This document shows positions 10,669 through 49,570 of a stretch of DNA of 64,000 nt, in pieces (the first letter of the stretch is position 1; each line of letters opens with the position of its first letter). Both the position numbers and the translations under genes were made by a program. The notes below the pieces were generated by a model, which ran no database searches, was not told the DNA's origin, and was given only the letters and a program-made list of their open reading frames with translations. Origin of the DNA: Aliikangiella coralliicola (GTDB taxonomy: Bacteria > Pseudomonadota > Gammaproteobacteria > Enterobacterales > Kangiellaceae); the NCBI RefSeq assembly GCF_007004725.1, contig NZ_ML660174.1, positions 1 through 64,000 of the forward strand, read 5' to 3'.

Positions 10669-11985
10669 TTACTTTGACGAGAGTTGCTCTAAAGTTTTTT
10701 CGATTAAAGCTAATCTTTCATTAAGTAATTTGTTTTGTTTTTCTAAAGACTCTATTTTACTATTCTTGTCTTTTACCTCTTCATTCAATGCTTGAATGGC
10801 AGCTAGTGCTATACCGCTGGTGTCTAATGAGGCGATGTGTTTATCGTCACTACCCAAACCAAATAGTTCATAGAACTCTTCAGCTATCGGCCCGATGTGT
10901 TTGATTGAAGAACCGTCATTGATATAGTTCCATTTTTTAATAGCTAGCTTTGAGAGCATATTAAGAATTTTTCCAGAGTCGACGGATACTATATTATCTT
11001 TAACAGTGCGACTAGAGCTAGAAACCACAGTTCCATTAACTACAAGTTGTGTATTAGTGAGTCTCATAAGCTCATCAGACGCCATATTTCTTATAACAAA
11101 TTGATTGTCATTAAGCAGCAAATTGTAATTATCGTGTGGATCCGCGTTTCCATCTGCAGTGTCTGCTCTTGATATCAAGAAACCATTTCCTGAAGAATAG
11201 GTTCCAACTGTCCATTCTTTACCGGCGTTATTTCTGTGCTCGAATTTAATGTTACTTCCGTGTTCGCTGTTTAAGGTCAGTAATGTGCGAACGTCTGCAG
11301 ATCCAGTTGCGGTGTCACTAATAATAGTACTTGCGCTAGCCCCCTCTACATTTAGTTTAGCGTCTGGTGATTCAGTACCTAACCCAATATCTCCATCTGC
11401 CGCAACAAATATACTACCTGTAGGCGCACCAGGCTTAATCTTAAACGGCAACTTACTCCCGTTAGTTGTATCCCGAATAAAAAAGTTAGCTTCATTTCCA
11501 GCCACATCCCAAGTCTGAGAGGCAAAACCAGAGGAACCATCCTGTTCTAAGCGTAGTGTTGGAGAGTTACCTTCTTTAACGTGTAAATTAACTACTGGTG
11601 TTGCAGTACCAAAACCAATTCTCCCGCCATCATCTACATAAAGCGAGTTTGTTGGTGCGCCAGCTTCAACTGTAAATGGAGTTTTACTCCCGGTGATATC
11701 ATCAATCGAAAATCTGTTTGCACCACCATTGGAGCTATCATTCGCTGTTAATTGCCAGTCGTTGCTTGGGAATGAAGCGGAGGTACTTGTGTCTTGAAAT
11801 TTAATTCTAAGATTGTTTTCTTTAAGTCTTAATGTATCGAACCCAAAAGATTCGCCATTACTACAGTCCTGCCCAACACAAAGACTTTGAGTGATAATGA
11901 CATCGTCTAGATGTTGAACATCTGCTAAGACTAAAGCACTATAAACGGAAAGAGCCGCAATTGACCCTATTGCAATTTTTTTCAT
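10669..11985 (-). CDS. Exported protein with S74-type tail-fibre chaperone domain
   Basis: 438 residues. A signal peptide (MKKIAIGSIAAL... up to about ALVLA) is followed by repeated beta-rich segments of the form GAPTxSxxVxxxGxIGxGTxxPxxxLxV, as in tail-fibre-like and surface proteins. The C-terminus (about 330-420) is an intramolecular-chaperone / peptidase S74-like domain with SSRTVKDNI, WNYINDG, HIGPIAEEF and LDTSGIALAAIQAL, then a terminal coiled coil. The usual S-D-x-R start of the self-cleavage motif reads S-S-R here, so autoprocessing is uncertain. AAGGAGA precedes the ATG. No phage genes are nearby, so this is a chromosomal exported fibre-like protein. It is co-transcribed with the small gene upstream. 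Confidence 0.88.
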   Translation of the reverse strand: MKKIAIGSIAALSVYSALVLADVQHLDDVIITQSLCVGQDCSNGESFGFDTLRLKENNLRIKFQDTSTSASFPSNDWQLTANDSSNGGANRFSIDDITGSKTPFTVEAGAPTNSLYVDDGGRIGFGTATPVVNLHVKEGNSPTLRLEQDGSSGFASQTWDVAGNEANFFIRDTTNGSKLPFKIKPGAPTGSIFVAADGDIGLGTESPDAKLNVEGASASTIISDTATGSADVRTLLTLNSEHGSNIKFEHRNNAGKEWTVGTYSSGNGFLISRADTADGNADPHDNYNLLLNDNQFVIRNMASDELMRLTNTQLVVNGTVVSSSSRTVKDNIVSVDSGKILNMLSKLAIKKWNYINDGSSIKHIGPIAEEFYELFGLGSDDKHIASLDTSGIALAAIQALNEEVKDKNSKIESLEKQNKLLNERLALIEKTLEQLSSK

Positions 11986-12005: not shown

Positions 12006-12449
12006 TTAGTTTTCGCTATTCAAAGTACGAGGATTAATAGTGATATTGGTTTTTTCTAGCTTGTTTTTGCTGACTAGTACGCCATTTGAAATTCTAAAAT
12101 GCCCCGAAACTTTTTTAGACTCAACAATTTTTCTTTTTGTTTTACCGCGTCCATTAAATTCATCAACAACGTCTTCTTCACCAAGCGTCTTGATTTCAAC
12201 GAACTCATACTTATAAAGACCATCTTTACGTGCATTCACTTCGTCAAGAGAAAGAAGTGCGTTACCGCCAGCTTTTTCTGATGTATAACGAAATTTATCT
12301 GGTCCGGTGATTGTCATTTTGACAGAGTCACCATATAAGCTACTTTTCATTTGAATAGCATTGTCTGAAAGTTTTACATCATTTGCTACTACGGAGCCTG
12401 CCAATCCTATAGCAAGGCTTGTAGCTACTACTGATTTTAGTACTCTCAT
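12006..12449 (-). CDS. Small exported protein of unknown function
   Basis: 147 residues, not recognised. A clear signal peptide (MRVLKSVVATSLAIGLAGSVVA, cut before NDVKL) precedes a hydrophilic, Lys-rich mature part of about 125 residues without cysteines. A GGAGGG Shine-Dalgarno sequence supports the ATG. It is the first gene of a two-gene minus-strand operon, 20 bases before the S74-domain gene, and is therefore probably a periplasmic or surface partner of that protein. Confidence 0.8.
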   Translation of the reverse strand: MRVLKSVVATSLAIGLAGSVVANDVKLSDNAIQMKSSLYGDSVKMTITGPDKFRYTSEKAGGNALLSLDEVNARKDGLYKYEFVEIKTLGEEDVVDEFNGRGKTKRKIVESKKVSGHFRISNGVLVSKNKLEKTNITINPRTLNSEN

Positions 12450-12658: not shown

Positions 12659-15600
12659 GTGCCACTAGCTAATCTTGTCACCAATTTTAAAATTGGTTGC
12701 GTTGTGTTCGTTATATTTTGTTTACACATTGGTTCAGCTCGCGCTGCGCCGCCGACGTTTAACGCAACTGTCACACCTTCTACGGTGGGGCCAGGAAGTA
12801 CTGCGACAGTAACTTTTACTATTACAAATGTTGATGCAACACCGGTTACCAGTGCAGGTTTTACGAATACGTTGCCAGCAGGGCTCGTTCACGGGACACC
12901 ATCTGACGTAACAACGACATGTGCGAATGGGGCTTTAACTGCGGCTGATGGAGGTACAACACTCACGTTTTCAGGATACGATTTAGCCGGTAGTTCGTCT
13001 TGCACGGTAACGATCGATGTTTTGGCGTCGACGACGGCTGGCGTATACACCATCTTAACAGGCGACTTAACTTCCAGCGAAGGAAATAGTGGTAGCGCAA
13101 CGGCTAATTTAACAGTTGTTACCAACAGACCTGGATATACAATGTCATTCTCACCAACCTCTATCAATCGAGGAGCGATTTCTACGCTCACGCAGACTTT
13201 TGACAATACCCAAAATGGAGCAAGAGTTGGAGATTTGAGTTCGACCGTTGATTTACCTTTAGGCTTAGTTATCGCAGATGAACCGAATGCGACTTCAGAT
13301 TGTGGCTCAGCTAACGCTCCTGTCACCATTACTGCAAATGCAGGAGCAAGTAGTGTTGTTTTTAATGCAGATGGAAGTACATTTTTTCCTGGTTTTGAGG
13401 CGCTATCTGCGGGGGCAAGTTGCACAGTTACTGTTGATGTAAAAAGTACCGGAGTTGGTACCTTTACAGCCGTCGAAACTGACGCTTTAGCTGATTTTAA
13501 CAGTATGGGGGGCGCTAAAGCTGCTATTGTGTCGACTCAGGCATTTGCATTGATGGAGTTTGAGGATAACCCGACAACGCCAGGGGCAACTACGAACTTA
13601 AAAGTGACATTAACTAACTTTGATCGTTCTGGTACGGCGACTAACATTGCTTTTACCGATGATCTGGACGCAGCTTTGTCAGGTTTAGTCGCAACGAGCT
13701 TGCCAGCAGAACCTTGCGGAATAGGTTCTTCATTAAGTGGTACGTCGACAATAAGTTTGACCGGCGGTTCACTTGCACCTGAGGCGTCCTGTACTTTTAG
13801 TGTTCCAGTGCAGATCCCTGCGGGGGCGGCTGCTTCAAGTAATACTAACACTACCAGTACCTTCACCTATGATCTTGACGGAAGTGGTGTGATAAAGCCT
13901 GCTGTTTCGCACAATCTAACAATAACTCAGGCACCTACGATTAGCTTAAGTGTTACGCCAGATCCTGTCATTGTTGGAAACAATATTACCGCAAGTTTTG
14001 CTATTAACAATATCGATACTGTGCAGGCCGCCACTGATATCGCGTTTACCTCTGAACTGACCGCATTTTTACCTTTTCCGGTGACTATACCAAGCTTTCC
14101 AACAAACCCTTGTGGTACCGGTTCGTCAATTTCGTTAGCGACCCCAGATATTGACACTCAAGTTTTATCACTAACCGGCGGTAATCTGGCTGCGGGAGCT
14201 TCTTGCAACTTTAATGTAGATATTACAGTTCCGAGCACAATGTCACCGGGAAATTATACGATGACCACTGAGAAAATTAGTGCGACGATTAATAGTGCTA
14301 CAGTGACAGGAGGAACTACGTCCGACTCATTTCAGATAATTTCAGCTCCAACGTTGTCGATAGAGTTTGATAACACAACTTTAATCCCTGGTGGATCGAA
14401 TACGGCAACCTTTACGCTATCCAATAACCCCAACTCACCAACTGACGCAACTACAGTCGCTTTTACTGTTGACTTAGATGCGGCGCTAACAGGTTTAACA
14501 ACAACTGGCTTCAGTTCAAATACTTGTGCCGGTTCTATATTGTCAGGTACTTCAATTATAGACTTTTCAAATGGCGCTTTAGCGGCTGGTACTAGTTGTA
14601 GTTTTAATGCGACTTTGCAATTACCAGGTGGTGGAGTATCAAGTAATGTTAACGTCACCTCTAGTGTGATCAATGCGACGGTTGATGGAAATGCGGTAAC
14701 TAGCCCCGCAGTAACTTCAAGTTTTGATGTTGTTACACTTACAGCAAGTATGGTTGTTAGTGATAATGATGGAGATGCGGATAACAACGTGCAGCCAGGA
14801 AGCACCACTGCAACTATTGATTTTAGTTTTACTAACAATTCGACACTTGATCAGAGTGCTATAGGATTTGGGCTGGATCTAAATAGTGCACTGAGTGGCC
14901 TTGTATCCAGCTCGGGTACGCTTAACAATATTTGTGGTGCAGGTTCCTCTATTTCAGGGACAAACTCCTTGAGTTTTACCAATGGACAACTATCGGCGGG
15001 TGGTAGTTGTAATTTCAGCGTGACGTTAACGGTTCCTGGTGCCGCTACCGACGGTGACTATACTTTGCTTTCAAACGCACTTAGTTTTACTGAAAACTCC
15101 ACACTTTATGCACTTAACCCGTTGACCACTAATTTTAATATTGAGACTGATACAGCGCCGTCAATATTTTCAATCACTTCCAGTGTTTCTCCACTAACCG
15201 GAGTCGCGCCTATTCCTATGGAAATCGTATTTTCCGAGGATGTAGAGGGGTTTGTCGATACAGATATTACGGTGACCAACGGAACGGCTAGCAATTTAGT
15301 TCAGGTGACTGCTGACCGTTACACATTTGATATTACTTCTCCTGTGGATGGGACAACAATTGATGTTCAGCTACTAGCGGGTGTGGTAGAGGAGGCAGGC
15401 GCTGGGACACAAACCAATACTGCCTCTAGTGTGTTCTCTATTGGTTATGATACGTCGGCATTACCGACCGGCATTGTCACTGTTCCGGCAAACGTACAAG
15501 TCAATACCGGACCGACAACGGCAACTGTTACTTACAGCAATGCGACAATACACAGTTTGACCAATGACAAAGTAAATCTGATTACCACCGGAACCGCGAG

Positions 15601-18600
15601 TACAGCAAACTTTGTTGATAATAATACGCCTAATCCCGACATTACGGTTATTAATGGAACAACTGCTACACCGACGATTCAGATCTCGAATATTGTAGGT
15701 GATGGAACAATTGCCGTAGGAATTGATCCTCTCACGGCGCGAAATAATGTGGGAGATGTTCAAGCAATTGCAGATAGCACAAATTCCATAAGCGTCGACA
15801 ACACAGCGCCAACAGTTGCAATAACTAGTGGTGTTTCTGATCCGACTAATTCTGCATTTACAATTAATATTGATTTTACAAATCCAGCAACAAGTGGTCC
15901 TGATACTTCAATTACAGGATTTACCAGTTCGGATGTAATTTTAAGTAACGCAAATATTAGTGGTTTTACTGGCAGCGGTAGCAGTTATTCTGCCACGATA
16001 ACACCTACTAATAATGGAAATGTAACTGTTGATATTAGTTCTGCCGTGGCGTTTGATGATCATGGCAACGGAAATGTCGCAGCCCCGCAATTTTCTGTAA
16101 CTTATGATATTGAAGCTCCAAATGGTTATGCAGTTGCAATTGATACACCACAACCATTTATCAATGCATCAAATGATACAGCATTCCAATTTTCATATAG
16201 TGGTGCTGAAATAACTAGTCAATACAGCTATACGATAACTGATGGTGTTAATACTTCTACACCAGTGACGGGAACTATTACAACTGCAAGCGGCAGTTTT
16301 ACTGGAATTGACGTTAGTAGTTTTAACGAAGGGACGTTAACCTTAAGTTTTACTTTGACTGATGTTGCTGGTAATACCGGTGGCGCATCTACCGACACAA
16401 TCATCAAACAATATAACGATGCACCAGTAATTACAGAAGGTGCGACAACCAATGTTGTCATGAGTGAAGACAGCACGCCTACACCCTTTAGTTTGACACT
16501 AAACGCGACCGACCCTGAAAATGAAACTATCACCTGGAGTGTTAGTTCAGCCGCGAGCAATGGTGTAGCAAGTACGAGTGGGGATGGTACCAGCAAGGTC
16601 ATCAACTATACGCCAAACGCTAACTTTAATGGCGCGGATAGTTTTACCGTTGAAATAACAGACAGCAATGCGTTAGATCCACTGACTGACAGTATTGTGG
16701 TTAATGTGCAAGTTAATCCTGAAAATGATGCGCCAGTATTTGACTCAACTTCTGTTAATGCCGTGTTGGAAGATGCTGTTTACGTTTATAACATCGTAAC
16801 ATCAGATATTGATGTTGGTGATAATTTAGCAATTACTGCTACAACAATTCCGTCATGGTTATCCCTGACTAGTGGAGCGAATGGTACTGCAGTACTAACC
16901 GGTACTCCGCTTAATGAACATGTTGGTAATAATTCAGTAACGCTGGTTGTTACGGACGATAGTGGGGCTGCTAACAACTCTGCCACACAAAGCTTTACGA
17001 TTGTCGTTGGAAATACCAATGATGCACCAACCTTTGATTCAACTGCTATTACTACTGGTACTGAGGACGCTAATTATATTTATAACGTCACAGGTAGTGA
17101 TGTGGATTTGGGTGATAGTATTTCATTCAGTGCTAGTGTGCTACCCGCTTGGTTATCTTTGACTGATAATGGGAATGGGACCGCTACGTTAACTGGCACA
17201 CCGCTTAATGCTAATGTTGGAAATAACAATGTTACTTTGGTGGTAACTGATAGCAATAGCGCAACAGACACTCAGAGCTTTGTGATAGACGTTGTCAATA
17301 CAAATGACTTACCTACTGGATTACCGGTAGTCACCGGCACATTATTACGAAACGAAACGCTTAGTGTTGATACGTCATTGATGAGTGACGACGACGGTTT
17401 TGGCCCATTTAGTTATCAATGGCGAAGAAGTGGTGTAAATGTTACCGGAGCGACTAATAGCACATACGTTTTAGGTGAAGATGATGTCTGGCAAACCTTT
17501 AGCGTTATCGTTAGTTATACCGACCTACGTGGTACTAACGAATCGTTAGTTAGCGCCGAAAGTGGCACCGTGTCTGACTTAGATTCTGACGGCGATGGTA
17601 TTTTTGACCTTGAAGAAGGTACTGGTGATTCTGACGGAGATGGTATACCCGATTATCTAGACGAGGATAGCGATAATGACGGTATTCCTGATAGTGAAGA
17701 GGGTAATGGCGACTCTGATACAGACGGTATTCCAGATTATCTTGATACATCTCTCGATGAAGATGGTGATGGTATCCCTGATGCACTTGAAGGTGGTGCC
17801 AACATCGACACTGATGGCGACGGAACTGTTGATGCTTTTGATAGTGACAGTGACAATGATGGAATAACCGATTTAGAAGAATCCGGTGCTAGCGGTGTTG
17901 ATACCGATGGCGATGGTATTGATGACACATTTGATGTCGATGCTACAGGCGGCACCGATGCTAATGGAGATGGAATTGATGACAATGTTGCTCTATTAGA
18001 CAGTGATGGGGACGGTATTCCAGACCACCTTGATAGAGACAGTGACAATGACTCTGTACCTGACGCACTCGAAAATCGGGTAGGTTTGCAGCTTAAACTA
18101 TCAACCGAAACCTATAAAAATACACAAATGGCTGTATCTGATACAGATGGCGACGGTGTAATGGATTATCTCGATCCTGATAGTGATGAAGACGGCATTA
18201 GCGATTTAGCAGAGGCTGCCACCAGCATTATCGATAGCGATATGGATCAGATTATCGATGAATTTGACGTAGATTTTACCGGTGGACTTGATGTTGATCT
18301 GGATGGGGTCGATGATGCGGCAATGTTGCAAAATTCTGATAACGATTTAACGCCGGATATGTTTGATCTTGATGCCGACAATGATGGTCATAATGACGTA
18401 ACCGAAGCTGGTCTAACCGATGCGGATTTAAACGCGTTAGTTGATTCTGCTGCTGAACGTACCGATACACCAAGAGACACTGATGCCGATGGATTGGCGG
18501 ATTACCGAGATCTAGATAGTGATAATGATGGTAGTTTTGATATCGAAACGAGCGGGGCTGCGACACTTGACCTGGATGGTGATGGCCAAGTTGATGACGC

Positions 18601-19930
18601 GTCGGCCGACGCTGACGGTGATGGTATCATCGACGCTTTGGATGATGAACCAAACCAATTCGGGACCAGTCGTGACAGAGATCTTGATGGAGTGCCGAGC
18701 AGCGTGGATCGAGATGATGACGGTGATGGTATATCTGACCTGGTTGAAGGTAATCAAGACTCGGATGGAGACGGCATTATCGATTCTCTTGATTCCGACA
18801 GCGACAATGATGGTTTAGCAGATATGTATGAAGCTGATCGCCCCATGCCTTCAGGCAATGATGTTGATAGAGATGGTATCGACGATCGATATGACGTTGA
18901 TTTTACTGGCGGTAACGATGCGAATGCTGACGGTGTAGATGATGCTTTTGTTAATACCGACTCAGATAGTGATGGTACTGCTGATTATCTGGATAACGAC
19001 AGTGACAATGACAGCATTTCTGATTCTGAAGAACAGCTGACCGTAACACTGTCAGGTAATGACACAGACATGGATGGATTGGATGATGCTGTTGACGTCG
19101 ATTCTACCAATGGTACTGACTCAAATGGCGATGGTCAGGACGATAGCACTATATCCGGCGATGATATTGATGGAGATGGAGTATTAGCTTTCAGAGATAG
19201 CGATACAGATGGAGATGGAATATCTGATATTAATGAAAATGGAGATTTTAATGGTGATGGTGTAAATGATCGTCTGCAAGCTGTAGTTGAAGTTCGCGCA
19301 ACATCTGGCGGCGGGTCGATGGGAGTTGTGATTATACTATTCCTTTTGCTGGCGTTAGCCCATCGCAAAAAGTTTACTCGTAAGCTGGTCATTTTGTTTT
19401 GTGCCGGTTCGGCGTTTTCTGCGCAGGCTTTTGAAAATTGCGATTCAGATACCGGTGAAACATGTTGGTATGCGGAACTTGGTGTTGGCCGCTCACATTT
19501 TGATCCAGTTACAGAAAATACTAGTTGGGATGTATCTCGAGACGCTGACACAGCATATAAATTTGCTGTAGGGTTCGATTTTCAAAATGACTGGTTCGCT
19601 GAATTTGGTTATAGCCGATTAGGAAAAGCCAAACTCGTAAGCCAAAATCCGGCATTTTCTAATAATGGATTTATTAATTACAACGCTACAGAGGCGGCGC
19701 TTGGGTATCGGCTAAAACCCAGTACAGGCAATTATAGTTTTTATTTTAAAGCTGGCTTGGTCGCGTTGGAGACTAATTCTAACTTTATTGCTGATGATGA
19801 TGACGATGCTACCTTATTAGGTTTTGGCTTTTATTGGGATAAAAAAGATGGACGATCCCTGAAGCTGGGCTTTGACCAATATGGAGAGGACACTTATTTA
19901 GTATCTTTAAGCCTGCAAAACTACTTCTAA
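12659..19930 (+). CDS. Giant surface protein: Ig-like and TSP3 repeats, GlyGly-CTERM-like tail, fused beta-barrel
   Basis: 2423 residues from a GTG start with AAGGA 7 bases upstream. A signal peptide ends near GSARA. Residues of about 30-820 hold five or six DUF11-like beta-sandwich repeats with paired cysteines (pattern ...L(S/A)AGxSCxFxVxxxVP). Ig-like and cadherin-like repeats follow (about 820-1640), two of them nearly identical, with SWLSLT and LTGTPLN motifs. Residues of about 1640-2210 are Ca-binding thrombospondin type 3 repeats (DSDGDGIPD type). At 2217-2222 is GGGSMG, then a hydrophobic stretch and HRKK: a GlyGly-CTERM-like sorting signal. Directly after come a second signal-peptide-like segment ending FSAQA and an OmpA-like barrel of about 160 residues ending in Phe. 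A long surface or released adhesin is inferred. Confidence 0.87.
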   Translation: MPLANLVTNFKIGCVVFVIFCLHIGSARAAPPTFNATVTPSTVGPGSTATVTFTITNVDATPVTSAGFTNTLPAGLVHGTPSDVTTTCANGALTAADGGTTLTFSGYDLAGSSSCTVTIDVLASTTAGVYTILTGDLTSSEGNSGSATANLTVVTNRPGYTMSFSPTSINRGAISTLTQTFDNTQNGARVGDLSSTVDLPLGLVIADEPNATSDCGSANAPVTITANAGASSVVFNADGSTFFPGFEALSAGASCTVTVDVKSTGVGTFTAVETDALADFNSMGGAKAAIVSTQAFALMEFEDNPTTPGATTNLKVTLTNFDRSGTATNIAFTDDLDAALSGLVATSLPAEPCGIGSSLSGTSTISLTGGSLAPEASCTFSVPVQIPAGAAASSNTNTTSTFTYDLDGSGVIKPAVSHNLTITQAPTISLSVTPDPVIVGNNITASFAINNIDTVQAATDIAFTSELTAFLPFPVTIPSFPTNPCGTGSSISLATPDIDTQVLSLTGGNLAAGASCNFNVDITVPSTMSPGNYTMTTEKISATINSATVTGGTTSDSFQIISAPTLSIEFDNTTLIPGGSNTATFTLSNNPNSPTDATTVAFTVDLDAALTGLTTTGFSSNTCAGSILSGTSIIDFSNGALAAGTSCSFNATLQLPGGGVSSNVNVTSSVINATVDGNAVTSPAVTSSFDVVTLTASMVVSDNDGDADNNVQPGSTTATIDFSFTNNSTLDQSAIGFGLDLNSALSGLVSSSGTLNNICGAGSSISGTNSLSFTNGQLSAGGSCNFSVTLTVPGAATDGDYTLLSNALSFTENSTLYALNPLTTNFNIETDTAPSIFSITSSVSPLTGVAPIPMEIVFSEDVEGFVDTDITVTNGTASNLVQVTADRYTFDITSPVDGTTIDVQLLAGVVEEAGAGTQTNTASSVFSIGYDTSALPTGIVTVPANVQVNTGPTTATVTYSNATIHSLTNDKVNLITTGTASTANFVDNNTPNPDITVINGTTATPTIQISNIVGDGTIAVGIDPLTARNNVGDVQAIADSTNSISVDNTAPTVAITSGVSDPTNSAFTINIDFTNPATSGPDTSITGFTSSDVILSNANISGFTGSGSSYSATITPTNNGNVTVDISSAVAFDDHGNGNVAAPQFSVTYDIEAPNGYAVAIDTPQPFINASNDTAFQFSYSGAEITSQYSYTITDGVNTSTPVTGTITTASGSFTGIDVSSFNEGTLTLSFTLTDVAGNTGGASTDTIIKQYNDAPVITEGATTNVVMSEDSTPTPFSLTLNATDPENETITWSVSSAASNGVASTSGDGTSKVINYTPNANFNGADSFTVEITDSNALDPLTDSIVVNVQVNPENDAPVFDSTSVNAVLEDAVYVYNIVTSDIDVGDNLAITATTIPSWLSLTSGANGTAVLTGTPLNEHVGNNSVTLVVTDDSGAANNSATQSFTIVVGNTNDAPTFDSTAITTGTEDANYIYNVTGSDVDLGDSISFSASVLPAWLSLTDNGNGTATLTGTPLNANVGNNNVTLVVTDSNSATDTQSFVIDVVNTNDLPTGLPVVTGTLLRNETLSVDTSLMSDDDGFGPFSYQWRRSGVNVTGATNSTYVLGEDDVWQTFSVIVSYTDLRGTNESLVSAESGTVSDLDSDGDGIFDLEEGTGDSDGDGIPDYLDEDSDNDGIPDSEEGNGDSDTDGIPDYLDTSLDEDGDGIPDALEGGANIDTDGDGTVDAFDSDSDNDGITDLEESGASGVDTDGDGIDDTFDVDATGGTDANGDGIDDNVALLDSDGDGIPDHLDRDSDNDSVPDALENRVGLQLKLSTETYKNTQMAVSDTDGDGVMDYLDPDSDEDGISDLAEAATSIIDSDMDQIIDEFDVDFTGGLDVDLDGVDDAAMLQNSDNDLTPDMFDLDADNDGHNDVTEAGLTDADLNALVDSAAERTDTPRDTDADGLADYRDLDSDNDGSFDIETSGAATLDLDGDGQVDDASADADGDGIIDALDDEPNQFGTSRDRDLDGVPSSVDRDDDGDGISDLVEGNQDSDGDGIIDSLDSDSDNDGLADMYEADRPMPSGNDVDRDGIDDRYDVDFTGGNDANADGVDDAFVNTDSDSDGTADYLDNDSDNDSISDSEEQLTVTLSGNDTDMDGLDDAVDVDSTNGTDSNGDGQDDSTISGDDIDGDGVLAFRDSDTDGDGISDINENGDFNGDGVNDRLQAVVEVRATSGGGSMGVVIILFLLLALAHRKKFTRKLVILFCAGSAFSAQAFENCDSDTGETCWYAELGVGRSHFDPVTENTSWDVSRDADTAYKFAVGFDFQNDWFAEFGYSRLGKAKLVSQNPAFSNNGFINYNATEAALGYRLKPSTGNYSFYFKAGLVALETNSNFIADDDDDATLLGFGFYWDKKDGRSLKLGFDQYGEDTYLVSLSLQNYF
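17580..19280 (+). repeat. Thrombospondin type 3 calcium-binding repeat region
   Basis: Within the giant protein, the codons for D-x-D-x-D-G-x-x-D repeat many times, with units such as DSDGDGIPD, DSDNDGI and DTDGDG separated by short linkers. This gives a strongly Asp-rich, GAT/GAC-dominated DNA repeat. The family binds Ca2+ and forms a stiff stalk. Confidence 0.9.
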
Positions 19931-20186: not shown

Positions 20187-23100
20187 ATTAAATCTCGTCT
20201 TTTAAAACTAGTGATTGCTAGCGTATTAGTCAGCTTGGGCGGTATTAGCCAGGCAGAGGAATCTGTTGACGATATTGTTAACGAAATTAAGGCGCTAGAA
20301 AAAGCAAGAGATCCCAAGTGTTATGCGACTGCTTCGCGCCTTGAAGATTTTATGTTTGGCACGCCACTGACTGATGAAGCTCGTTTTCGTAAAAACTTAC
20401 TGCAAAAGAGTTGGGCTAAGATAGTTTGGGAGCGAGCTTCAAAAATCGCGTCCGCAGAAAATAAAGCCGCCATTTCTCAATCACTTCTTATGAATGTAAT
20501 TGCGGAGAACTTTACTTTCAAACAAGATGAAAAGAAACACTGGGCGATAAAATTTGCAGGCGGACAAGAAGTTCGGATTAATAAAGAAGATAAACGTCAG
20601 TATTCTACCATTGCTTACGCATTAAGAGCTATTTTGGCGGTACAACAAGAATCATTGATGGATCTCGACTCAACATTGCTTCCTTTACATCCTGATGCAA
20701 TTAAAAGCTTAAAAGACAGCCTCGACTTGTTCAGCCTGGCCGTACTAAAAATAACCGATGCTAAAGCGAGGAAAAAAAATGAGCATGATGTGAAACTCGC
20801 TTCACTAAACGATGTTTGGTCGACATTGCTGAACTTAAAAAATGAAGAGTTAGTGACGAAACCCAAAACCTCAAAAAACGTAGCAGATTTATCAATAGTA
20901 AGAAAAATTATTCAACAAAAAGTTGAGTCATATGCAGCTTACAATCAAATTTCGAATCAACTTTTTGTCCGCAACCTACAAGTTTATTTTGCCCGATTAA
21001 GTTGGCCGAAAGATCCTGAAGAAGGTAAGAGGTTTAAGAATTTATTTACCGAGACGATGATCCAATTTGCCAATGATCTTTATAAAGAAACAGAAAAAAT
21101 TGCATTAAAAAATGGGCATGGAATTATTATGGAGAGTGACGTCCATGAACTAATTCAGCAATTTATACCTCACGAGATCAACGAGTATGAAGATGCCATC
21201 TTTTTCCCAAAACTTCCTAGAGGTGAGCGAGTTAATATTGAATCTTATGATATGGATTCGTTTCGAGACAGCGGCATTCATTGGCGCTATTTAGAGTTTG
21301 CTCTAAACGAACCCGGTTTTAAGGCGCAACTTCAACCAGATCCTTTTGCTTTGGAATTAATGGTAGAAAATATTGCGCAATTTGGTGTTCTTAGTCTGAG
21401 ACTTGCTGGAGAAGAGGGAAAAAGAATTGGTGCTAGTCGTTTAAAGCAGTCATATTTTGTTGATGGGCTGAAGCTCATTCAGCGAAGAGTTACAAAGCAT
21501 TCAATGATAAAAGATAAAAGCGAAGCCACCGCTCAAATTGTATCAGCGAAAAAACGAGATGTGTTTGTTAGTGAAAAAACGGCCATGTTTAGCGATACAA
21601 CTGAAAGTGTTGGCATTGATTTAATGCATCGTTCCTCTGATTGGCTTAACCGTCTGTTACGAAGCTACCTTGATAAAGGAAAAGGGGTTGGTGTTATTAC
21701 TATACCTCCCGCGTTTGGCGGAAGCGGAGTAGCAGCAGAAGATATTAATAACGATGGTTTCATTGACCTGTTGATTTTAAGTGGCTTGGGAAATAAGCTC
21801 TATTTAAATGATCAAGGAAAGCGATTTGTTGATATAACTAAGCAGTCAGGAATTGACTGGAAACGACCTGAAGATAATACTCCTGGCGAGCCAAGACAAC
21901 CACTTATTGCTGACCTGAATAATGATGGTTTACAAGATATTGTTATTACTTACGTTAATGATAAGCATCGAGTTTATCAAAATTTGGGGAATGCAAAATT
22001 TAAAGATTTAACCGATGTGGCAAATTTAGGAGGCGCTGATTTAGTAGGTGGTCCTGCGACTGTTGCTGATTTTGATAATGATGGATTACTCGATATTTAT
22101 GTGACTTATTTTGGCCATTATACAAAGGGAATTTTACCGACATTAAAACGACGCAACGATAACGGTTTACCTAACCAATTGTTTAAAAATACAGGTAATT
22201 TCAAGTTCAAGAATGTTACCGAAAATAGTAATACGGGTGACACTGGTTGGGCGCAAGCAATCGCGCATACGGATTTTAATAGTGATGGAAGGCAAGATTT
22301 GATTGTTGGTAATGATTTCGGCGTTAATGTTTATTTTGAAAATTTAGGCAACGGGAAGTTTAGAAATGTTGCTGCTGACTTAGGTACTGATAAGCCGTCA
22401 TATACAATGAATATTGGTATCGGCGATCTGAATCAAGATCTACGCCCGGACATTTATATTTCCAATATCGTCACAATGAACAAGGATGAAAAATATGTTC
22501 TTCCTAATGAAGACACAACAATGAAATTTAATGCTGAGAAATTGGCAAATATGAGAGTGGTTGAAGCCAATGATTTATTTTTGTCTGGTGTTGATGATAA
22601 GGGCAATTTGAGTTACGAATTAAGTGATGCTGTTGGACGAGGGTATTCATCAACGGGTTGGTCATGGGACGCAGATTTTTTTGATTATGATAATGATGGT
22701 GATAGCGATCTCTATGTACTTAATGGGATGAATGAATTCAACCTGTACAGCAATGAAAACCCTTATTACACAGATCCTCATAGTGAAGAACAAAAAGATG
22801 TTTATATTCCGGTTTCCACTAAAGAGTCGAATGTCTTTTTTGTGAATTCGGGGGGGAAACTCGTTAATCAATCAAAAAATTCTGGCCTTGATTTGATTGG
22901 TAATTCTCGTAGTGCAGCCTATCTCGATTTTGATAATGACGGTGACCTGGACATTATTGTTAATAATTATCATCAGGAAGCTAACTTTTATACCAATAAC
23001 TTGAACAAGAAAAATAATCATTGGGTTAAGCTAAAACTAATAGGCGATGTTGCGAATAAATCAAATAGAGATGCAATAGGCGCACAGATAATTCTTACTA

Positions 23101-23324
23101 CGAATGATAACCGGAAAATTTGGCGAGAAATACACGGTTCTATCGGCTACATGTCAGTCCATCCCAAAATGCAGCATTTTGGTCTAGGAGAATCACAAAT
23201 CAAACTAGCTGAAATTATCTGGCCGAATGGGCAGCGTCAAATACTTGAAAATATAGAGCTAGGTAAACTCCATGTAATTAAGCAAGAAAATAGTGACCGC
23301 TTATCTACAGTTGGAAGTAAGTAA
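20187..23324 (+). CDS. Exported CRTAC1-like protein: VCBS/FG-GAP propeller with ASPIC/UnbV domain
   Basis: About 1045 residues if translated from ATT 20187. The N-terminal 430 residues are helical and unrecognised. Then come seven or so FG-GAP/VCBS repeats (DINNDGFIDLLI, DLNNDGLQDIVI, DFDNDGLLDIYV, DYDNDGDSDLYV, DFDNDGDLDIIV), each a Ca-binding blade motif. The C-terminus is an ASPIC/UnbV domain (RDAIGAQI, IGYMSVHPKMQHFGLG, IWPNGQRQ). Starting at the ATT gives a classic signal peptide (KSRLLKLVIASVLVSLGGISQA), and AGGAG sits 6 bases before that ATT. The later GTG at 20211 would remove the basic n-region and has no Shine-Dalgarno sequence. The protein is likely periplasmic or surface-located. 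It overlaps the next gene by one base. Confidence 0.86.
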   Translation: MKSRLLKLVIASVLVSLGGISQAEESVDDIVNEIKALEKARDPKCYATASRLEDFMFGTPLTDEARFRKNLLQKSWAKIVWERASKIASAENKAAISQSLLMNVIAENFTFKQDEKKHWAIKFAGGQEVRINKEDKRQYSTIAYALRAILAVQQESLMDLDSTLLPLHPDAIKSLKDSLDLFSLAVLKITDAKARKKNEHDVKLASLNDVWSTLLNLKNEELVTKPKTSKNVADLSIVRKIIQQKVESYAAYNQISNQLFVRNLQVYFARLSWPKDPEEGKRFKNLFTETMIQFANDLYKETEKIALKNGHGIIMESDVHELIQQFIPHEINEYEDAIFFPKLPRGERVNIESYDMDSFRDSGIHWRYLEFALNEPGFKAQLQPDPFALELMVENIAQFGVLSLRLAGEEGKRIGASRLKQSYFVDGLKLIQRRVTKHSMIKDKSEATAQIVSAKKRDVFVSEKTAMFSDTTESVGIDLMHRSSDWLNRLLRSYLDKGKGVGVITIPPAFGGSGVAAEDINNDGFIDLLILSGLGNKLYLNDQGKRFVDITKQSGIDWKRPEDNTPGEPRQPLIADLNNDGLQDIVITYVNDKHRVYQNLGNAKFKDLTDVANLGGADLVGGPATVADFDNDGLLDIYVTYFGHYTKGILPTLKRRNDNGLPNQLFKNTGNFKFKNVTENSNTGDTGWAQAIAHTDFNSDGRQDLIVGNDFGVNVYFENLGNGKFRNVAADLGTDKPSYTMNIGIGDLNQDLRPDIYISNIVTMNKDEKYVLPNEDTTMKFNAEKLANMRVVEANDLFLSGVDDKGNLSYELSDAVGRGYSSTGWSWDADFFDYDNDGDSDLYVLNGMNEFNLYSNENPYYTDPHSEEQKDVYIPVSTKESNVFFVNSGGKLVNQSKNSGLDLIGNSRSAAYLDFDNDGDLDIIVNNYHQEANFYTNNLNKKNNHWVKLKLIGDVANKSNRDAIGAQIILTTNDNRKIWREIHGSIGYMSVHPKMQHFGLGESQIKLAEIIWPNGQRQILENIELGKLHVIKQENSDRLSTVGSK

Positions 23325-25606
23325 TGAAGATTTGGGTATTGTTTTTTTTCGCGATTTCGATTGTCTTGAACGCTAATAAAATAAACGCCGAATTGCTTCC
23401 TCCTCCTGGAATCAGTCAATCAGAAATAGAACAATTTGGCCGTTGGCAAAGATATTTTAATGAAAATAAAAAGAGCTTGGCGAGTAGGCTGAAAAAAGAA
23501 CCTGCTTATCTGAATGAGTTAATTTATAGCCAGTCTCCTTATTTAGAACAGCACGCATTTAATCCTATCAATTGGAAGTCATGGAGCAGTGAGTTACTCA
23601 ATCAAGCAAAGAAAAATAATAAACTGATTTTTCTTTCTATTGGTTATTCGACATGCCATTGGTGCCATACAATGGAAAAAGAGAGCTTCGTTGACGTTGA
23701 GATAGCGAGGATATTAAATAGAAATTTTTATTCAATTAAAGTTGATCGTGAAGAGTTACCTCACATCGACGACTACTATTCAGCCGCATTGGAACACGTA
23801 AAAGGAAGTGCTGGTTGGCCGATTACTGCGATTATTAACAGTGATGGCCTGCCCGTTTTTATCGACTCTTATTTGCCTAAAGAAAAGCTGCGTAAATTAC
23901 TTGGTCGAGTTGGTTCTATTTGGCGTACACAGCCGGAGTTTCTACTGGCAAGTGCGAAAAATATTGATGAATTAATCAATAACCGTTTCAATCAAACTAT
24001 TGGTACTTCTGCCAACAAAATAAACTTTGAGACGATTAACCAAAAACTACTTGCGGCACTGGACCCTGTTAATGGTGGATTTAGCGGTGCAGCAAAATTT
24101 CCGTCCGAGGCAATGCTGTTATATGTACTCGATCAGTTACGACGTGGAAAAAATACGGATCTTGAAAAGGCGTTAAAACTTCAACTCGATAAAATGATCC
24201 AAGGAGGGTTATATGATCATATTAGTGGTGGATTTCACCGTTATTCAACTGATCCTGGCTGGGTCGTGCCCCACTATGAGAAAATGTTATATAACCAGGC
24301 ACAGTTAGTTTCTGTTTATAGCCAGGCGTATCAGTATTTCAGAGATCCCGTTTATTTTGATGTGGTTGAAAGTACAATTAAATTTATGCTCACCGAGTTA
24401 TATGACGAAAATGGTGGATTTTGGTCAGCGATAGATGCAGATTTTAACGGAGAGGAGGGAGGTTATTATTTGTGGACCCCTGACGAACTTGCGCTTTTTA
24501 ATTTGGATAAATTGGCATATGAGACATATCAAATACCAGGTTCGCAGAAACTAGGTGTAGTTTTTCCTAAAAAACAACTGAGTCCCGATCTAAAGAAGAC
24601 TATTAGCTCACATAAAGAGATATTGGTAAATGCGCGCAAAAAGCGCGGTTCCCCTCATATTGATCAGAAGGTTATCACCGGTTGGAATGCATTGGCGATT
24701 AAAGCGCTGATAGACGCAGAGACGATTTTAGAAACAGGAAGTCTGGTTCGAGTTGCAGAAAAGCTTGCAGATAAGTTCTGGAAAGAGCGTTACCAAGAGT
24801 CGACTGGCATGATAAGCAGGGTTGGATTTAAAGGCGAGAAACTCCTTCGCAGCTATCTTGATGATTACGCTTATTTTTGTGATGCGTTAATCGCTTTATA
24901 TGATGTTTCAGATGATATAAAGTGGTTAAAAAAAGCGCAGATCCTTAAACATCAAGCCACTAAGCTTTTTCTGGACGCTGAAGGTGCGTTATACAACATT
25001 GCGCCTCGCCAGAATCTACTGTCTTTAAAAAAATCCCAAGACGGAGAGCTTTACGCTGCCTCTGCGGTAATGCTGGGCGTTATTTGGAAGTTGGATAAGA
25101 GATTAGGTGAAGAAGGTTTGAAGAAGAAGTTCTCGAAACTCATCGCGGTTAAAGAATCTAAGATTGCAAAAGAAACACTCAATCATCTATACAGCGCATT
25201 ATCGCTTCAAGATAGTAAAGAAGGCAGTACGTGGCACAGGCGCTATTTTGCTTCGGCTAAGGGACGATTAAATATTAAATGCTCTGAATACACAGCAAAT
25301 CGCCATTGTCGTGAGCTATCCATTAATGTGAAATTAGAAGATGGGTGGCATATCAACTCCAATCAGCCGTTACAAAACTACTTAATTCCAACTAAAATAG
25401 ACATCCCTGAGGGAGTTGAAGTGACTTATCCTGAAGAAAAAAGGGTAAAGCTCGGATTTCAGGATGAGGCGCTTAGTGTGTACGAGGGGAGCTTTGAAAT
25501 TCGATTAAAAAATAGAACAAAGAACAGGTTACATTTAACTCTACCGCTTCAAGCGTGCAATGATAGGATTTGTTTGTTACCAGAATCACTGAAATTTGTG
25601 ATGTAG
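23324..25606 (+). CDS. Exported DUF255 (YyaL/SSP411-like) thioredoxin-domain protein with DsbD-N-like C-terminus
   Basis: 760 residues. A signal peptide (MKIWVLFFFAISIVLNANKINA) is followed by a DUF255 thioredoxin-like domain with YSTCHWCHTMEKESF (Cys111 and Cys114) and an (alpha/alpha)6-barrel region typical of YyaL/SPATA20 proteins. The last 120 residues or so (about 640-760) resemble the N-terminal immunoglobulin-like domain of DsbD/DsbC-corrector proteins (GWHINSN, then LPLQACNDRICLLP with a Cys pair). Most DUF255 proteins are cytoplasmic and lack both the signal peptide and this tail. A periplasmic thiol/disulfide role is inferred. The ATG overlaps the stop of the CRTAC1-like gene (TAATG), so the two are translationally coupled. 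Confidence 0.88.
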   Translation: MKIWVLFFFAISIVLNANKINAELLPPPGISQSEIEQFGRWQRYFNENKKSLASRLKKEPAYLNELIYSQSPYLEQHAFNPINWKSWSSELLNQAKKNNKLIFLSIGYSTCHWCHTMEKESFVDVEIARILNRNFYSIKVDREELPHIDDYYSAALEHVKGSAGWPITAIINSDGLPVFIDSYLPKEKLRKLLGRVGSIWRTQPEFLLASAKNIDELINNRFNQTIGTSANKINFETINQKLLAALDPVNGGFSGAAKFPSEAMLLYVLDQLRRGKNTDLEKALKLQLDKMIQGGLYDHISGGFHRYSTDPGWVVPHYEKMLYNQAQLVSVYSQAYQYFRDPVYFDVVESTIKFMLTELYDENGGFWSAIDADFNGEEGGYYLWTPDELALFNLDKLAYETYQIPGSQKLGVVFPKKQLSPDLKKTISSHKEILVNARKKRGSPHIDQKVITGWNALAIKALIDAETILETGSLVRVAEKLADKFWKERYQESTGMISRVGFKGEKLLRSYLDDYAYFCDALIALYDVSDDIKWLKKAQILKHQATKLFLDAEGALYNIAPRQNLLSLKKSQDGELYAASAVMLGVIWKLDKRLGEEGLKKKFSKLIAVKESKIAKETLNHLYSALSLQDSKEGSTWHRRYFASAKGRLNIKCSEYTANRHCRELSINVKLEDGWHINSNQPLQNYLIPTKIDIPEGVEVTYPEEKRVKLGFQDEALSVYEGSFEIRLKNRTKNRLHLTLPLQACNDRICLLPESLKFVM

Positions 25607-43555: not shown

Positions 43556-44578
<1,023 letters not shown>

Positions 44579-44701
44579 AGATTGCTGATCCGCTAGAGCG
44601 TGCCACAGCGACAAGTTTTGTGGTTGTTAGAATTAAAAATTTGGCGACGAACACTTTAATTTGATTTCTGATTTCGCCTGAAATGTTTGGAAAAATAAAT
44701 A

Positions 44702-47080
44702 ATGAAATTTAGTGAAAATTGGCTGAGAACGTGGGTAAACCCTGAAATTAAGACGGATGAGTTAATCTCAACCTTAACAATGGCAGGTCTTGAAGTCGAT
44801 GGTTTTGAGAACATCGGAGCCGAATTGGAAGGGATACTTGTCGGGTTAATTGAGAAAACAGAACAGCACCCCGAAGCTGACAAATTACAGGTTTGTAGCG
44901 TCAATGTGGGAGCGGATGAAAATTTACAAATTATTTGTGGTGCGCCAAATGCGAGAGAGGGACTGAAAGTCGCAGTCGCTACTATCGGATGTGTATTGCC
45001 CGGTGACTTTAAAATTAAAAAAGCTAAATTGCGTGGTGTTCATTCATTCGGAATGCTTTGCTCAGGAAAAGAGCTGCAAATTTCTGATGAGCATGACGGC
45101 ATTATGGAGCTTGCTGAAAGCGCCGTAATTGGTGAACAATTAATTGATTATCTTGGCATGAAAGACACTGCAATTGATGTTGACTTAACGCCGAATAGAG
45201 GAGATTGCTTAGGTATAAAAGGCATCGCGACCGAAGTCGGTGTTTTAACCCAAACTCCTGTTACGCAGGTTGAAGTTAAGCCGGCAGAAGTGACTATCGA
45301 CGACAAGGTTGAAGTGAATCTGACTGCCCCTGAAGCTAACCCTCGTTTCGTGGCTAGAGTTATTAAGAATGTCAACATTAATGCAGAAACACCTGAGTGG
45401 ATGAAAGCCAGGTTGCTTGCGTCAGATATTCGAAGTATCGATGCAGTGGTTGACGTGACTAACTACGTGATGTTGGAGCTTGGCCATCCAATGCACGCAT
45501 TCGATTTAAATAATTTGAATGGTGCAATTGAAGTTCGCTTTGCGCGTGAAGGCGAAAAACTTACTTTGCTCGACGATCAGGAAATTGAATTAAGAACTGA
45601 TACATTGGTTGTTGCTGATGATGAGAAAAATTTATCATTAGCGGGAATAATGGGTGGTAAATACACTGGAATAAACCCAGACACAAAAGATCTATTACTG
45701 GAAGCTGCTCACTGGGATCCTGTTTATATTGCAGGAAAGGCAAGAAGTTATGGACTGCACACCGATGCATCGCACCGATTTGAGCGAGGAGTTGATTACA
45801 ATCTGAGTGCAGAGACCATTGAGAGAGCAACTGAATTACTGCTAGAAATTGTTGGTGGGCAAGCAGGGCCTTTAGTTGACGAAATCAATCAGGCACATTT
45901 CCCAGAATCGCGCAGCGTCAAATTGCGCAGAGCTCGTATCGAGCGCTTACTGGGAATTAAACTGGAAGACGAGCAAATCGAAGATATTTTAACTCGCCTT
46001 GGCATGGGATTGACTTCAAACGAAGAAGGTTGGCTAGTTGAAATTCCGAGCCGCCGCTTTGATATTTCAATTGAAGCGGATTTGATTGAAGAACTCGTCA
46101 GAATTTATGGATACAACAAAGTTCCAAGCCGAAAACCTGTTAGTGAAATGTCGATGATCAGACAGCCTGAAAATCGTCTCCAACGGCTTCAGTTAACCCA
46201 TGCATTAGCGGATCGAGGATATCAGGAAGCAATCACTTATACCTTTGTCGATAAGGATTCTCAGCAACTCATAGACCCCGAAGTAGAGCCACTAGCGTTA
46301 TTAAATCCGATTTCATCAGAGTTGGGCGTAATGAGAACTTCGTTGTGGCCCGGACTTCTAAAATCTGTAGAATATAATCAGAAGCGGCAACACGACCAGG
46401 TTCGTCTATTTGAAACCGGGTTAAAATTTGTACCTGGTGAAGACGGTCTGGTTCAAACGCCAGTAATAGCCGGCGTTATTTCTGGCCGGCGTTGTGCGGA
46501 AAATTGGGAAGCAGCCAATGAGAAAGTCGATTTTTACGATTTGAAAGGGGATCTTGAGGCGATATTTAAGTTAACTGCCGCAAGTGAGCAATTTACTTTT
46601 GTTGCGGCGCAACGAGATGGACTTCACCCTGGACAAACCGCCGAAATATTACGAAATGGCCGAAACTGCGGATTTATTGGGAAATTACACCCTCAAACGC
46701 AAAAAGAATTTGATCTTGACGAGGCTGCTTACGTATTTGAGCTAGACTTAAAGCGTGTGTTAGCAAGAAAAATACCTGATTTCAGCCCTTTATCAAAATT
46801 TCCCGCCATTCGTCGAGATTTGGCAATTTTGATAAAAGAAAGCGTGACATCTACGCAAATTGTTGATTTAATTGGACAAACAGCCAAAAGTTGGCTAAAT
46901 AATATTGTGATATTTGATATTTATCGCGGCAAGGGGATTGAGCCTGGTTATAAGAGTGTAGCGATTGGTTTTACGCTTCAACGGTCAGACAGAACCTTTA
47001 AGGAAGCCGAGATAAATAAGACAATGGAACGAATTATTTCAGTGTTATCAGATAAACTGGGTGCAGTTTTGAGGGAGTAG
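44702..47080 (+). CDS. pheT: Phenylalanyl-tRNA synthetase beta subunit
   Basis: 792 residues (E. coli 795). An N-terminal EMAP/OB-fold tRNA-binding domain ([10 protein letters not shown]...[16 protein letters not shown]), B3/B4 editing region ([20 protein letters not shown]), B5 domain, and C-terminal anticodon-binding FDX-ACB domain ([14 protein letters not shown]) are in the standard order. It works with PheS. The gene ends 2 bases before ihfA, so these are co-transcribed. Confidence 0.98.
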
Positions 47081-47082
47081 AG

Positions 47083-47382
47083 ATGGCATTAACTAAAGCA
47101 GATATGGCAGAGCGTTTATTCGAAGATTTGGGACTGAATAAACGTGAAGCAAAAGAGATGGTTGAAGGATTTTATGAGGAAATTCGTAATTCTTTATCAA
47201 CTAATCAGCAGGTAAAATTGTCCGGTTTTGGCAATTTTGACCTTCGCGATAAAAAACAACGTCCTGGACGTAACCCAAAAACTGGCGAAGAGATACCTAT
47301 TAGCGCTCGGCGTGTAGTGACTTTTCGCCCCGGACAGAAACTTAAAGCCCGAGTAGAGGCCTATGCTGGAAGCGAGCAATAA
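47083..47382 (+). CDS. ihfA: Integration host factor alpha subunit
   Basis: 99 residues. DNA-bending subunit that pairs with IhfB. The HU/IHF signature is complete: [68 protein letters not shown] overlaps the end of pheT and serves as Shine-Dalgarno sequence. The last 20 bases overlap the MerR-type gene. Confidence 0.98.
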
Positions 47383-47707
47383 TAACGAACTTTTACCGAT
47401 ACCTGACAAGCGATACTTCACAATCGGTGAGGTAAGCGAGCTTTGTCTTGTCAAACCGCATGTACTAAGGTATTGGGAACAAGAGTTTCCACAACTTAAA
47501 CCGGTAAAGCGGCGAGGTAATCGTCGCTATTATCAGCGTGATGACGTTCTAGTTATCCGAGAAATCCGAGAGTTATTGTACGATCAAGGGTTTACCATTG
47601 GTGGTGCACGTCAACAACTCGAAGCCGCTGAAAATGGGCCTGATCCACAAGCAATCCAGGCTATTATTAGTGATCTTGAAGAAGTACTAAGTATTCTAAA
47701 AAGCTGA
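47363..47707 (+). CDS. MerR-family transcriptional regulator
   Basis: 114 residues. An N-terminal winged helix of MerR type ([28 protein letters not shown], then [13 protein letters not shown]) is followed by a short dimerisation helix. There is no sizeable ligand domain or Cys-based metal site. This gene follows ihfA in many Gammaproteobacteria, with tRNA-Pro next. The target is unknown. The 20-base overlap with ihfA implies coupled translation. Confidence 0.93.
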
Positions 47708-47729
47708 TTTATCTGAATCTTAAATAAAA

Positions 47730-47755
47730 CAAGCGATAGCAGAAACTATCGCTTG
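47730..47755 (+). terminator. Hairpin after the MerR-type gene
   Basis: CAAGCGATAG (47730-47739) pairs perfectly with CTATCGCTTG (47746-47755) around a 6-base loop, 22 bases after the stop codon. A T-run is lacking, so it may be a processing or 3'-stabilising hairpin rather than an efficient terminator. Confidence 0.55.
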
Positions 47756-47780
47756 CAATGAGATTTAAATCGGGTAATAT
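47753..47780 (+). promoter_or_regulatory. Promoter of tRNA-Pro
   Basis: TTGCAA (47753-47758) and TAATAT (47775-47780) are spaced by 16 bases and followed by the GC-rich TCGGCCCC. A GC-rich discriminator is typical of stable-RNA promoters under stringent control. Transcription should start near 47787. Confidence 0.65.
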
Positions 47781-47817
47781 TCGGCCCCACAAATTAGTTT
47801 GTTCAAACTAATCCAAT

Positions 47818-47894
47818 CGGAGCGTGGCGCAGCCTGGTAGCGCACTTGCATGGGGTGCAAGTGGTCGGAGGTTCAAATCCTCTCGCTCCGACCA
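47818..47894 (+). tRNA. tRNA-Pro (anticodon GGG)
   Basis: 77 bases with CCA encoded. Acceptor CGGAGCG pairs with CGCTCCG; the D-arm is GCGC...GCGC; the anticodon stem CTTGC/GCAAG encloses ATGGGGT with anticodon GGG; the T-arm GGAGG-TTCAAAT-CCTCT is complete. It closely resembles E. coli proL and sits in the conserved place after ihfA-merR. Confidence 0.97.
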
Positions 47895-48050
47895 AATTCT
47901 TTCTATTAAATTTACCACCTTCATTTTTATCACATTCTAATATATTGGTATCCAAAGAATGTCGTGCTAGTGTGTGAGAAATTGTCGATGTTTGATATAG
48001 GATACTTTATAAAATCGGGGTGTCTGATATTTATTTTTTAGCGCTCTTGC

Positions 48051-49391: not shown

Positions 49392-49477
49392 AGAAACGTC
49401 CTTGTGAGCTTTTCACTAATAGTAATATTAACATGAAAATCACTACCAAACATATCCTAACTAAAGCTGGAATAATT

Positions 49478-49570
49478 ATGAGCCAGAAATCGCTAGAAGA
49501 ACGAATTGCCATTCTAGAGACTCGGTTAGATGCCTTAGAAAAGACGAATTCCGCGCTTGTGAGGCATTGA
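49478..49570 (+). CDS. Short coiled-coil frame, possibly truncated SlyX-like
   Basis: 30 codons (MSQKSLEERIAILETRLDALEK...), with CTGGA before the ATG. The start resembles the N-terminus of SlyX (about 70 residues), a small coiled-coil protein, but the frame stops early at TGA 49568. It may be a broken slyX or a chance frame. The rest of 49392-49751 shows no other gene. Confidence 0.35.
   Translation: MSQKSLEERIAILETRLDALEKTNSALVRH

Follow-up and report, generated by a model that had tools for sequence, protein, structure and literature searches.

An internal GlyGly-CTERM sorting tail followed by an OmpA-type barrel in a large repeat protein of Aliikangiella coralliicola

Sorting tails are C-terminal by definition, and searches and models treat them so; internal ones would be missed or misannotated. 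What such a tail might do in the middle of a chain is the question raised by a 64,000-nucleotide stretch of the gammaproteobacterium Aliikangiella coralliicola (assembly GCF_007004725.1, contig NZ_ML660174.1, positions 1 to 64,000; hereafter the window), in which a single open reading frame (ORF), 12659-19930 on the forward strand, encodes a 2423-residue chain that runs in frame from a repeat protein through a GlyGly-CTERM tail, a basic loop and a second hydrophobic segment ending in AQA into an OmpA-type barrel. The answer favoured here, with a probability of about 0.7, is that the chain is a secretory polyprotein, from which rhombosortase and signal peptidase I, each by one cut, would release a surface repeat protein and a barrel for the outer membrane. 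Other genomes, their contigs and loci, and one genus are cited below by our own handles (G, C, L and g numbers).

One frame from repeat protein to barrel

The part of the chain that precedes the tail, the passenger, comprises about 2,200 residues of repeat protein (Table 1). Judged by its repeats it may be a surface protein of adhesin-like or matrix type, and the DxDGDG repeats look like the calcium-binding type. At 19307-19372 the frame reads GGGSMGVVIILFLLLALAHRKK, which scores 22.5 bits against TIGR03501 in the genome search, 15.7 within the whole protein and 23.3 as an isolated segment; the score varies with the amount of flanking protein supplied, and the curated cut-off of 15.5 bits is passed in every context scored. 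The tail is not at the extreme C-terminus, as 185 amino acids follow the match, and one hydrophobic segment beyond the signal peptide and the tail lies after it, at residues 2243-2257.

Internal tails are rare within this genome. The search listed 30 GlyGly-CTERM matches, 19 of them above the cut-off, and in 25 of the 28 examined the protein ends 0-17 amino acids past the match; a match on contig C7 lacks the motif and was set aside as a chance match. Two of the 28 are internal, that of the window and that of a paralogue on contig C6 (400 amino acids follow), and both lead into a signal-like segment and a barrel. The paralogue (G000:C6, about 44000-62000, L078) is an open frame of 6085 amino acids, whose tail scores 14.5 bits, just below the cut-off, and in which a further C-terminal stretch follows the barrel.

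The barrel matches OMP_b-brl (PF13505, E 3e-9) and OmpA_membrane (PF01389, E 7e-7, 29.6 bits with a cut-off of 21), and ends in Phe at 19927, directly before the stop codon at 19928-19930. An AlphaFold2 model built from the last 220 residues and three relatives has two helices, eight long strands and one three-residue strand, with a mean predicted local distance difference test (pLDDT) score of 73. Foldseek groups the barrel with the OmpA transmembrane domain (9fzc, E 1.3e-10; 1bxw, E 7e-9; TMt 0.67-0.68), and the profile matches above cut-off together with the small up-and-down fold make it OmpA-type. TIGR03501, the translation and PF13505/PF01389 therefore confirm what the original prediction had read from the letters, namely a tail, a second signal-like segment ending in AQA and an OmpA-like barrel with a C-terminal Phe in one frame.

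Fused and separate forms among relatives

A 376-residue query recovered the same layout in the genus and the family; the wider searches used A1, an alignment of the C-terminal regions of 17 fused proteins. Matches were found in 25 of 40 genomes of the family (E<=0.001), 70 of 369 of the class sample and 111 of 394 of the order sample (both E<=1e-10), and 19 of 398 of the phylum sample (E<=1e-12), none of the 19 lying outside the class. To judge by the length of their frames, many of these matches, chiefly those from the order and phylum samples, resemble ordinary OmpA genes. From the family, class and order, 142 barrel matches were examined, comprising most of the long-ORF matches, good-scoring separate barrels and some generic OmpA genes, so that the counts are not population frequencies; long-ORF matches outside the 142 include G334:C5:22592, G241:C258, G225:C16:3957 and G110:C14. 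A script sorted the 142 into 83 fused, 23 adjacent and 36 neither. Once read, 80 proved to be fused, the full set of tail, basic loop, second segment and barrel being present, and these come from 64 genomes; 28, one of them doubtful, are separate genes behind an ORF that ends in a tail, which some of them overlap; and 32 are neither, some of these at contig edges. Two OmpA-type barrels in long ORFs, G374:C238 (L182) and G252:C79 (L175), were dropped from the fused count, with no tail visible in the preceding 120 amino acids, and G356:C15 was struck from the adjacent pairs because its upstream ORF ends like what we take to be lysyl-tRNA synthetase. The 22 script pairs retained have gaps of at most 88 bases or overlap, measured from the first possible start codon. 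Six pairs were added by eye, namely G127 (20 bases off), G164 (a same-frame stop between tail and barrel) and, within 300 bases, G334:C5:10050, G334:C139, G072:C81 and the doubtful G072:C36.

A barrel-only search (A3), unable to favour tails, gave 101 rows at E<=1e-12 in 46 of the 369 class-sample genomes; 36 of these lie in open frames of at least 740 amino acids, and by hand count 32 of the 36 belong to the verified fused set, two show no tail and two were left unread. None of nine generic OmpA controls (G538, G591, G642, G489, G575, G599, G739, G691, G664) lies behind an ORF ending in a tail, and the plasmid and phage collections gave no match. A single-protein query of genome contigs matched Aliikangiella sp. 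G2MR2-5, a Kangiellaceae metagenome-assembled genome (MAG) and a Pseudomonadales MAG; four further matches (Saprospiraceae, two labelled 'uncultured bacterium' and a cyanobacterium) cover mainly the repeat region. In G016:C34 (L084:3054-3437) a 127-residue remnant, probably a decayed copy, runs from the final part of the repeat region straight into the later barrel, the tail, the signal and the first part of the barrel being missing. Beyond the barrel the fused proteins vary: 44 of the 80 stop after it, 35 of these with an aromatic last residue or a Phe among the last two, and 36 extend further, with a PF00691 OmpA domain in the one such protein scanned (L073).

One locus occurs in both forms. 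In genus g5, G025 and G027 carry a fused gene flanked on one side by a gene that we take to be EF-Tu, and on the other by two genes whose products carry ...ACSGG...DSEE and M(K)RRDFIKLGSAAIATSGLMN... at their N-termini; the fused genes of G031 and G032 also adjoin the presumed EF-Tu. In G028 and G035 the same two flanking genes are followed by two genes in place of the fused one (the stretches examined did not include EF-Tu). The first of these in G028 encodes a 1147-residue repeat protein ending ...SGGSSSVILLIMLMTMLITRRLKRGYINDFK, the passenger stopping after a normal tail, as in split relatives. The separate barrel gene encodes 203 amino acids with their own N-terminal signal peptide, and starts at an ATG 14 bases before the end of the first gene, with the Shine-Dalgarno sequence AAAGAGAGG upstream.

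Changes between the two forms have been repeated, as fused and adjacent barrels are mixed within well-supported clades. A quick tree of 140 barrels requires at least 14 changes, an uncertain figure given weak branches elsewhere in the tree, and 30 shuffles of the labels require 20-28. Five mixed clades have Shimodaira-Hasegawa-like approximate likelihood ratio test (SH-aLRT) values of 94-100, namely G028 and G035 with G025, G027 and G031 (99), G265 with G138 (100), two G123 loci (99), G200 with G127 (96) and G225 with G072 and G334 (94), the last depending partly on the doubtful G072:C36. Such repeated changes fit the view that the halves function as two proteins, whether encoded together or apart. 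The original prediction had suggested that the halves would be a self-contained partner pair and had asked whether relatives keep them fused or separate; both states occur, and the adjacency of the split genes supports the pairing.

The pairing is not bound to one type of tail, as several types are joined to this barrel family. Among 79 fused tails scanned at E<=0.02, where a single tail can match several models, SVAGG GlyGly was matched by 13, two MYXO-CTERM models by 10 and 4, JDVT-CTERM by 3, LPXTG by 3 and others by 1-2 each. Two of six further tails scanned, both from adjacent pairs, match JDVT-CTERM best, with 32.4 bits (cut-off 27) and 24.2 (below it). Separate OmpA-type genes that overlap, or lie 0-7 bases from, ORFs with JDVT-CTERM-like tails were also seen in G106, G140, G246 and G368 (L156, L155, L149 and L154), of which the tails of G246 and G140 were scanned.

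Proposed processing and competing explanations

Under the polyprotein reading, the N-terminal signal peptide would route the passenger through Sec, and the GlyGly-CTERM helix would halt transfer and leave its basic end on the cytoplasmic side. The second hydrophobic segment would then re-enter the membrane as an internal signal peptide and export the barrel. Signal peptidase I, assumed to be present, would cleave after AQA and free the barrel to insert in the outer membrane, and rhombosortase would cleave at the glycines of the tail, releasing and probably lipidating the passenger, which could then be displayed on the surface via type II secretion. The outcome would be a surface repeat protein and an OmpA-type partner in a one-to-one ratio. 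Rhomboid proteases and signal peptidases have their sites on the outer side of the membrane, and a topology of two helices joined by a basic turn, with the glycines and AQA both outside, would put both sites where their proteases act.

The cut after AQA is the more secure of the two steps. By its sequence the barrel half fits a signal peptidase I substrate, with a basic n-region (HRKKFTRK), a core (LVILFCAGSAFS) and AQA. In the model the first strand begins about 11 residues past the AQA site, and the periplasm is too wide for an uncut stretch of that length to bridge the two membranes; if the barrel does fold in the outer membrane, a cut at this point is all but required. A script count found the loop between the helices to be net positive in 79 of the 80 fused genes, which fits a cytoplasmic turn; the exception, G606, was mis-segmented, as was G370. 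Strict AxA motifs follow 40 of 78 second segments and 31 of 56 signal peptides of separate barrels, against 16 of 78 tail helices (Fisher p 1e-4 for second segment versus tail helix; G606, G370 and three separate barrels at contig edges are omitted).

The rhombosortase cut is the less certain step. The rhombosortase gene that the original prediction had proposed to look for is present in the genome as one match above the cut-off (C11:223027-223476, 135 bits, cut-off 84), with GLSG and HLYG motifs holding the Ser and His, and GspD is also above its cut-off. Rhombosortase passes the cut-off in 62 of the 64 genomes with fusions, the exceptions being G061 (55% complete) and G502, and in 12 of the 13 with adjacent pairs only (exception G164). 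At class level it is found in 27 of 27 fusion genomes versus 3 of 14 without a match (p 1e-7, ignoring relatedness), the 14 having been taken in listed order from the class-sample genomes that lack a match, minus G068, G071 and G081, which are incomplete or very small. In G370:C47:17854-19148 (L189) a rhombosortase ORF stands immediately after a fused tail-barrel gene.

Several observations count against the proposed processing. G502 is 99% complete and has a fusion, and its best rhombosortase score is 40.7 bits, below the cut-off; conversely, of 37 genomes in which A1 had no match at E<=1e-10, 23 have rhombosortase, 16 of the 23 being from the window's own family. TIGR03501 is matched by only 28 of the 79 fused tails at E<=0.02, the remainder having been recognised by the three-part pattern or by other tail models, and 38 of the 78 second segments have no strict AxA in the tested stretch. 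Model residues 1-21 and 32-55 have pLDDT values below 50, so that the two helices are weakly supported. Acceptance by rhombosortase of a tail that is followed by a second helix is putative, the characterised tails being C-terminal, and both cuts are predictions from the sequence.

Some of these points are shared by an explanation in which only signal peptidase I cuts, rhombosortase refuses the internal tail and the passenger is held in the inner membrane by a helical hairpin. The at most few residues past the helix that known GlyGly-CTERM proteins have, in the passages available of PMC3237569, would agree with it, as would G502, yet the motif is retained in fused forms, split relatives carry a normal tail and rhombosortase accompanies nearly all fusions, and we regard this explanation as unlikely.

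A single unprocessed protein of autotransporter type, whose C-terminal barrel serves as anchor or exporter for the passenger, with the hydrophobic stretches as mere linkers, would account for a large passenger joined to a C-terminal barrel ending in Phe, and autotransporter barrels do appear among the Foldseek matches, at scores far below those of OmpA. Little credence can be given to it, as the barrel is small and OmpA-type, tail and signal recur in all 80 fused cases, the passengers of split relatives stop after the tail, 25 tails of the same genome end without a barrel and the linker is too short for the periplasm.

Separate translation of the barrel, from a start inside an incidentally fused frame, is also quite improbable, although split relatives do begin at an ATG in the junction region and 30 of the 80 fused junctions contain an in-frame ATG, 7 of them with a Shine-Dalgarno-like match of at least 4 bases. 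Fifty junctions have no ATG, and 9 have no ATG, GTG or TTG. A script scan of the window junction found no ATG and no Shine-Dalgarno sequence, the sole candidate start being a TTG within the hydrophobic core, which agrees with the earlier impression that no clear ribosome-binding sequence and start codon are visible there. Internal initiation is not conserved, and may occur in some of these genes. Finally, an assembly or sequencing error that joined two genes is refuted by the recurrence of the fusion, in frame in 80 cases across 64 genomes and also as a second copy in the same genome, and its probability is practically nil.

If the chain is cut as proposed, it would be a bacterial polyprotein processed by two proteases, with equal amounts of a surface protein and an outer-membrane protein as its products, and the barrel would become a candidate for the partner of rhombosortase substrates in the outer membrane. 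The barrel may be the outer-membrane partner of its own passenger; a partnership that is dedicated and functional is possible, at somewhat less than even odds. Equally tentative is the wider picture of a widespread gammaproteobacterial polyprotein system, in which giant surface repeat proteins might be made with a dedicated OmpA-type partner that helps to export, receive or anchor them, the tail lying within the chain as a processing element, where a rhomboid protease would cut on one side and signal peptidase I on the other, with the pairing switched repeatedly between fused and neighbouring genes and drawn from more than one sorting system (GlyGly-CTERM and JDVT-CTERM).

Genomic context and known systems

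A gene-fusion link connects the fused gene with one of its divergent neighbours, as the N-terminal domain of the product of 10669-11985 recurs in a Pseudomonadales MAG, where it is the passenger fused to a tail and barrel (L124:8056-10296, 48% over 95 amino acids). The same domain is part of a plain GlyGly-CTERM protein in G025 (L089:4170-5717, 46% over 71 amino acids). An FG-GAP / UnbV_ASPIC gene also lies downstream of the fused gene in G001 and G009, and in G022 by size and position only; it does not in G005.

Table 1. Positions of the fused gene, its parts and its neighbours in the window
Feature	Position	Strand	Basis
Divergent neighbour with N-terminal domain found elsewhere	10669..11985	-	Sequence comparison
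Divergent neighbour	12006..12449	-	Kept beside fused gene in G022 (46% identity over 132 aa)
Fused ORF, 2423 aa	12659..19930	+	GTG start after AAGGAACCTCC, a good Shine-Dalgarno sequence
N-terminal signal peptide, 29 aa, ending SARA	12659..12745	+	Sequence and hydropathy
Passenger domains: DUF7933 (6 stretches), Big_12, Big_9, He_PIG	12752..17500	+	Profile matches; right boundary approximate
Passenger, acidic DxDGDG repeats as far as the sorting tail	17560..19270	+	Translation and repeat matches; boundaries approximate
GlyGly-CTERM: GGGS motif, transmembrane helix, HRKK	19307..19372	+	TIGR03501 match; low-confidence model helix 18-31
Second signal-like segment FTRKLVILFCAGSAFSAQA	19373..19429	+	Sequence, alignment with relatives; low-confidence model helix 38-49
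OmpA-type barrel, C-terminal Phe	19430..19927	+	Profiles, structure model, fold search
FG-GAP / UnbV_ASPIC protein	20211..23324	+	Downstream of fused gene
DUF255 thioredoxin / DsbD_N protein	23324..25606	+	Domain matches

Among known systems, type V autotransporters have no sorting tail or signal peptide between the passenger and the C-terminal barrel, whereas in the window protein a CTERM and a signal-like segment separate the two. The cytochrome bc1 polyprotein FbcH of Bradyrhizobium is likewise a single bacterial chain split at an internal signal peptide, but it yields respiratory subunits and has neither a sorting tail nor an outer-membrane product; the literature searches returned nothing relevant on precedents of this type, and no paper on FbcH itself. 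The barrel shares the fold of the N-terminal transmembrane domain of OmpA (PF01389, PDB 1bxw and 9fzc), and differs from OmpA in being the last part of another secreted protein, with no further domain in the window copy.

JDVT-CTERM tails contain a Cys and are assigned to MrtJ, one of the glutamic-type CPBP proteases, with MrtJ and a JDVT-CTERM protein forming a two-gene neighbourhood, according to passages of PMC11980579. They resemble the present case in being fused to, or standing directly before, the same barrel family, and differ from the window tail, which is of the GlyGly type.

The closest likeness is to the GlyGly-CTERM substrates of rhombosortase (TIGR03501 / TIGR03902), such as VesB of Vibrio cholerae. 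In the parts available of the papers on them, VesB is cleaved to expose its second glycine and is modified with a glycerophosphoethanolamine-containing moiety (Gadwal 2018, PMC6219818), a 2024 VesB study describes cleavage by RssP within the transmembrane domain (PMC11389362), and the tail acts as an independent motif on other proteins (Roberts 2026, PMC13393428). Of 219 GlyGly-CTERM proteins, not one was predicted to have a helix after its signal peptide and ahead of its tail, in a test that covered the stretch before the tail, as given in passages of PMC3237569. No internal tail or tail-barrel fusion was described in the titles, opening parts of abstracts and passages returned by searches on rhombosortase, GlyGly-CTERM, OmpA with rhombosortase and GlyGly-CTERM with polyprotein. 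The window protein shares with these substrates the glycine motif, transmembrane helix, basic cluster, N-terminal signal peptide and a rhombosortase in the genome, and is unlike them, with their 0-5 residues after the helix (Haft 2011, PMC3237569, in the passages available), in that its tail is internal and leads on into a signal-like segment and a barrel.

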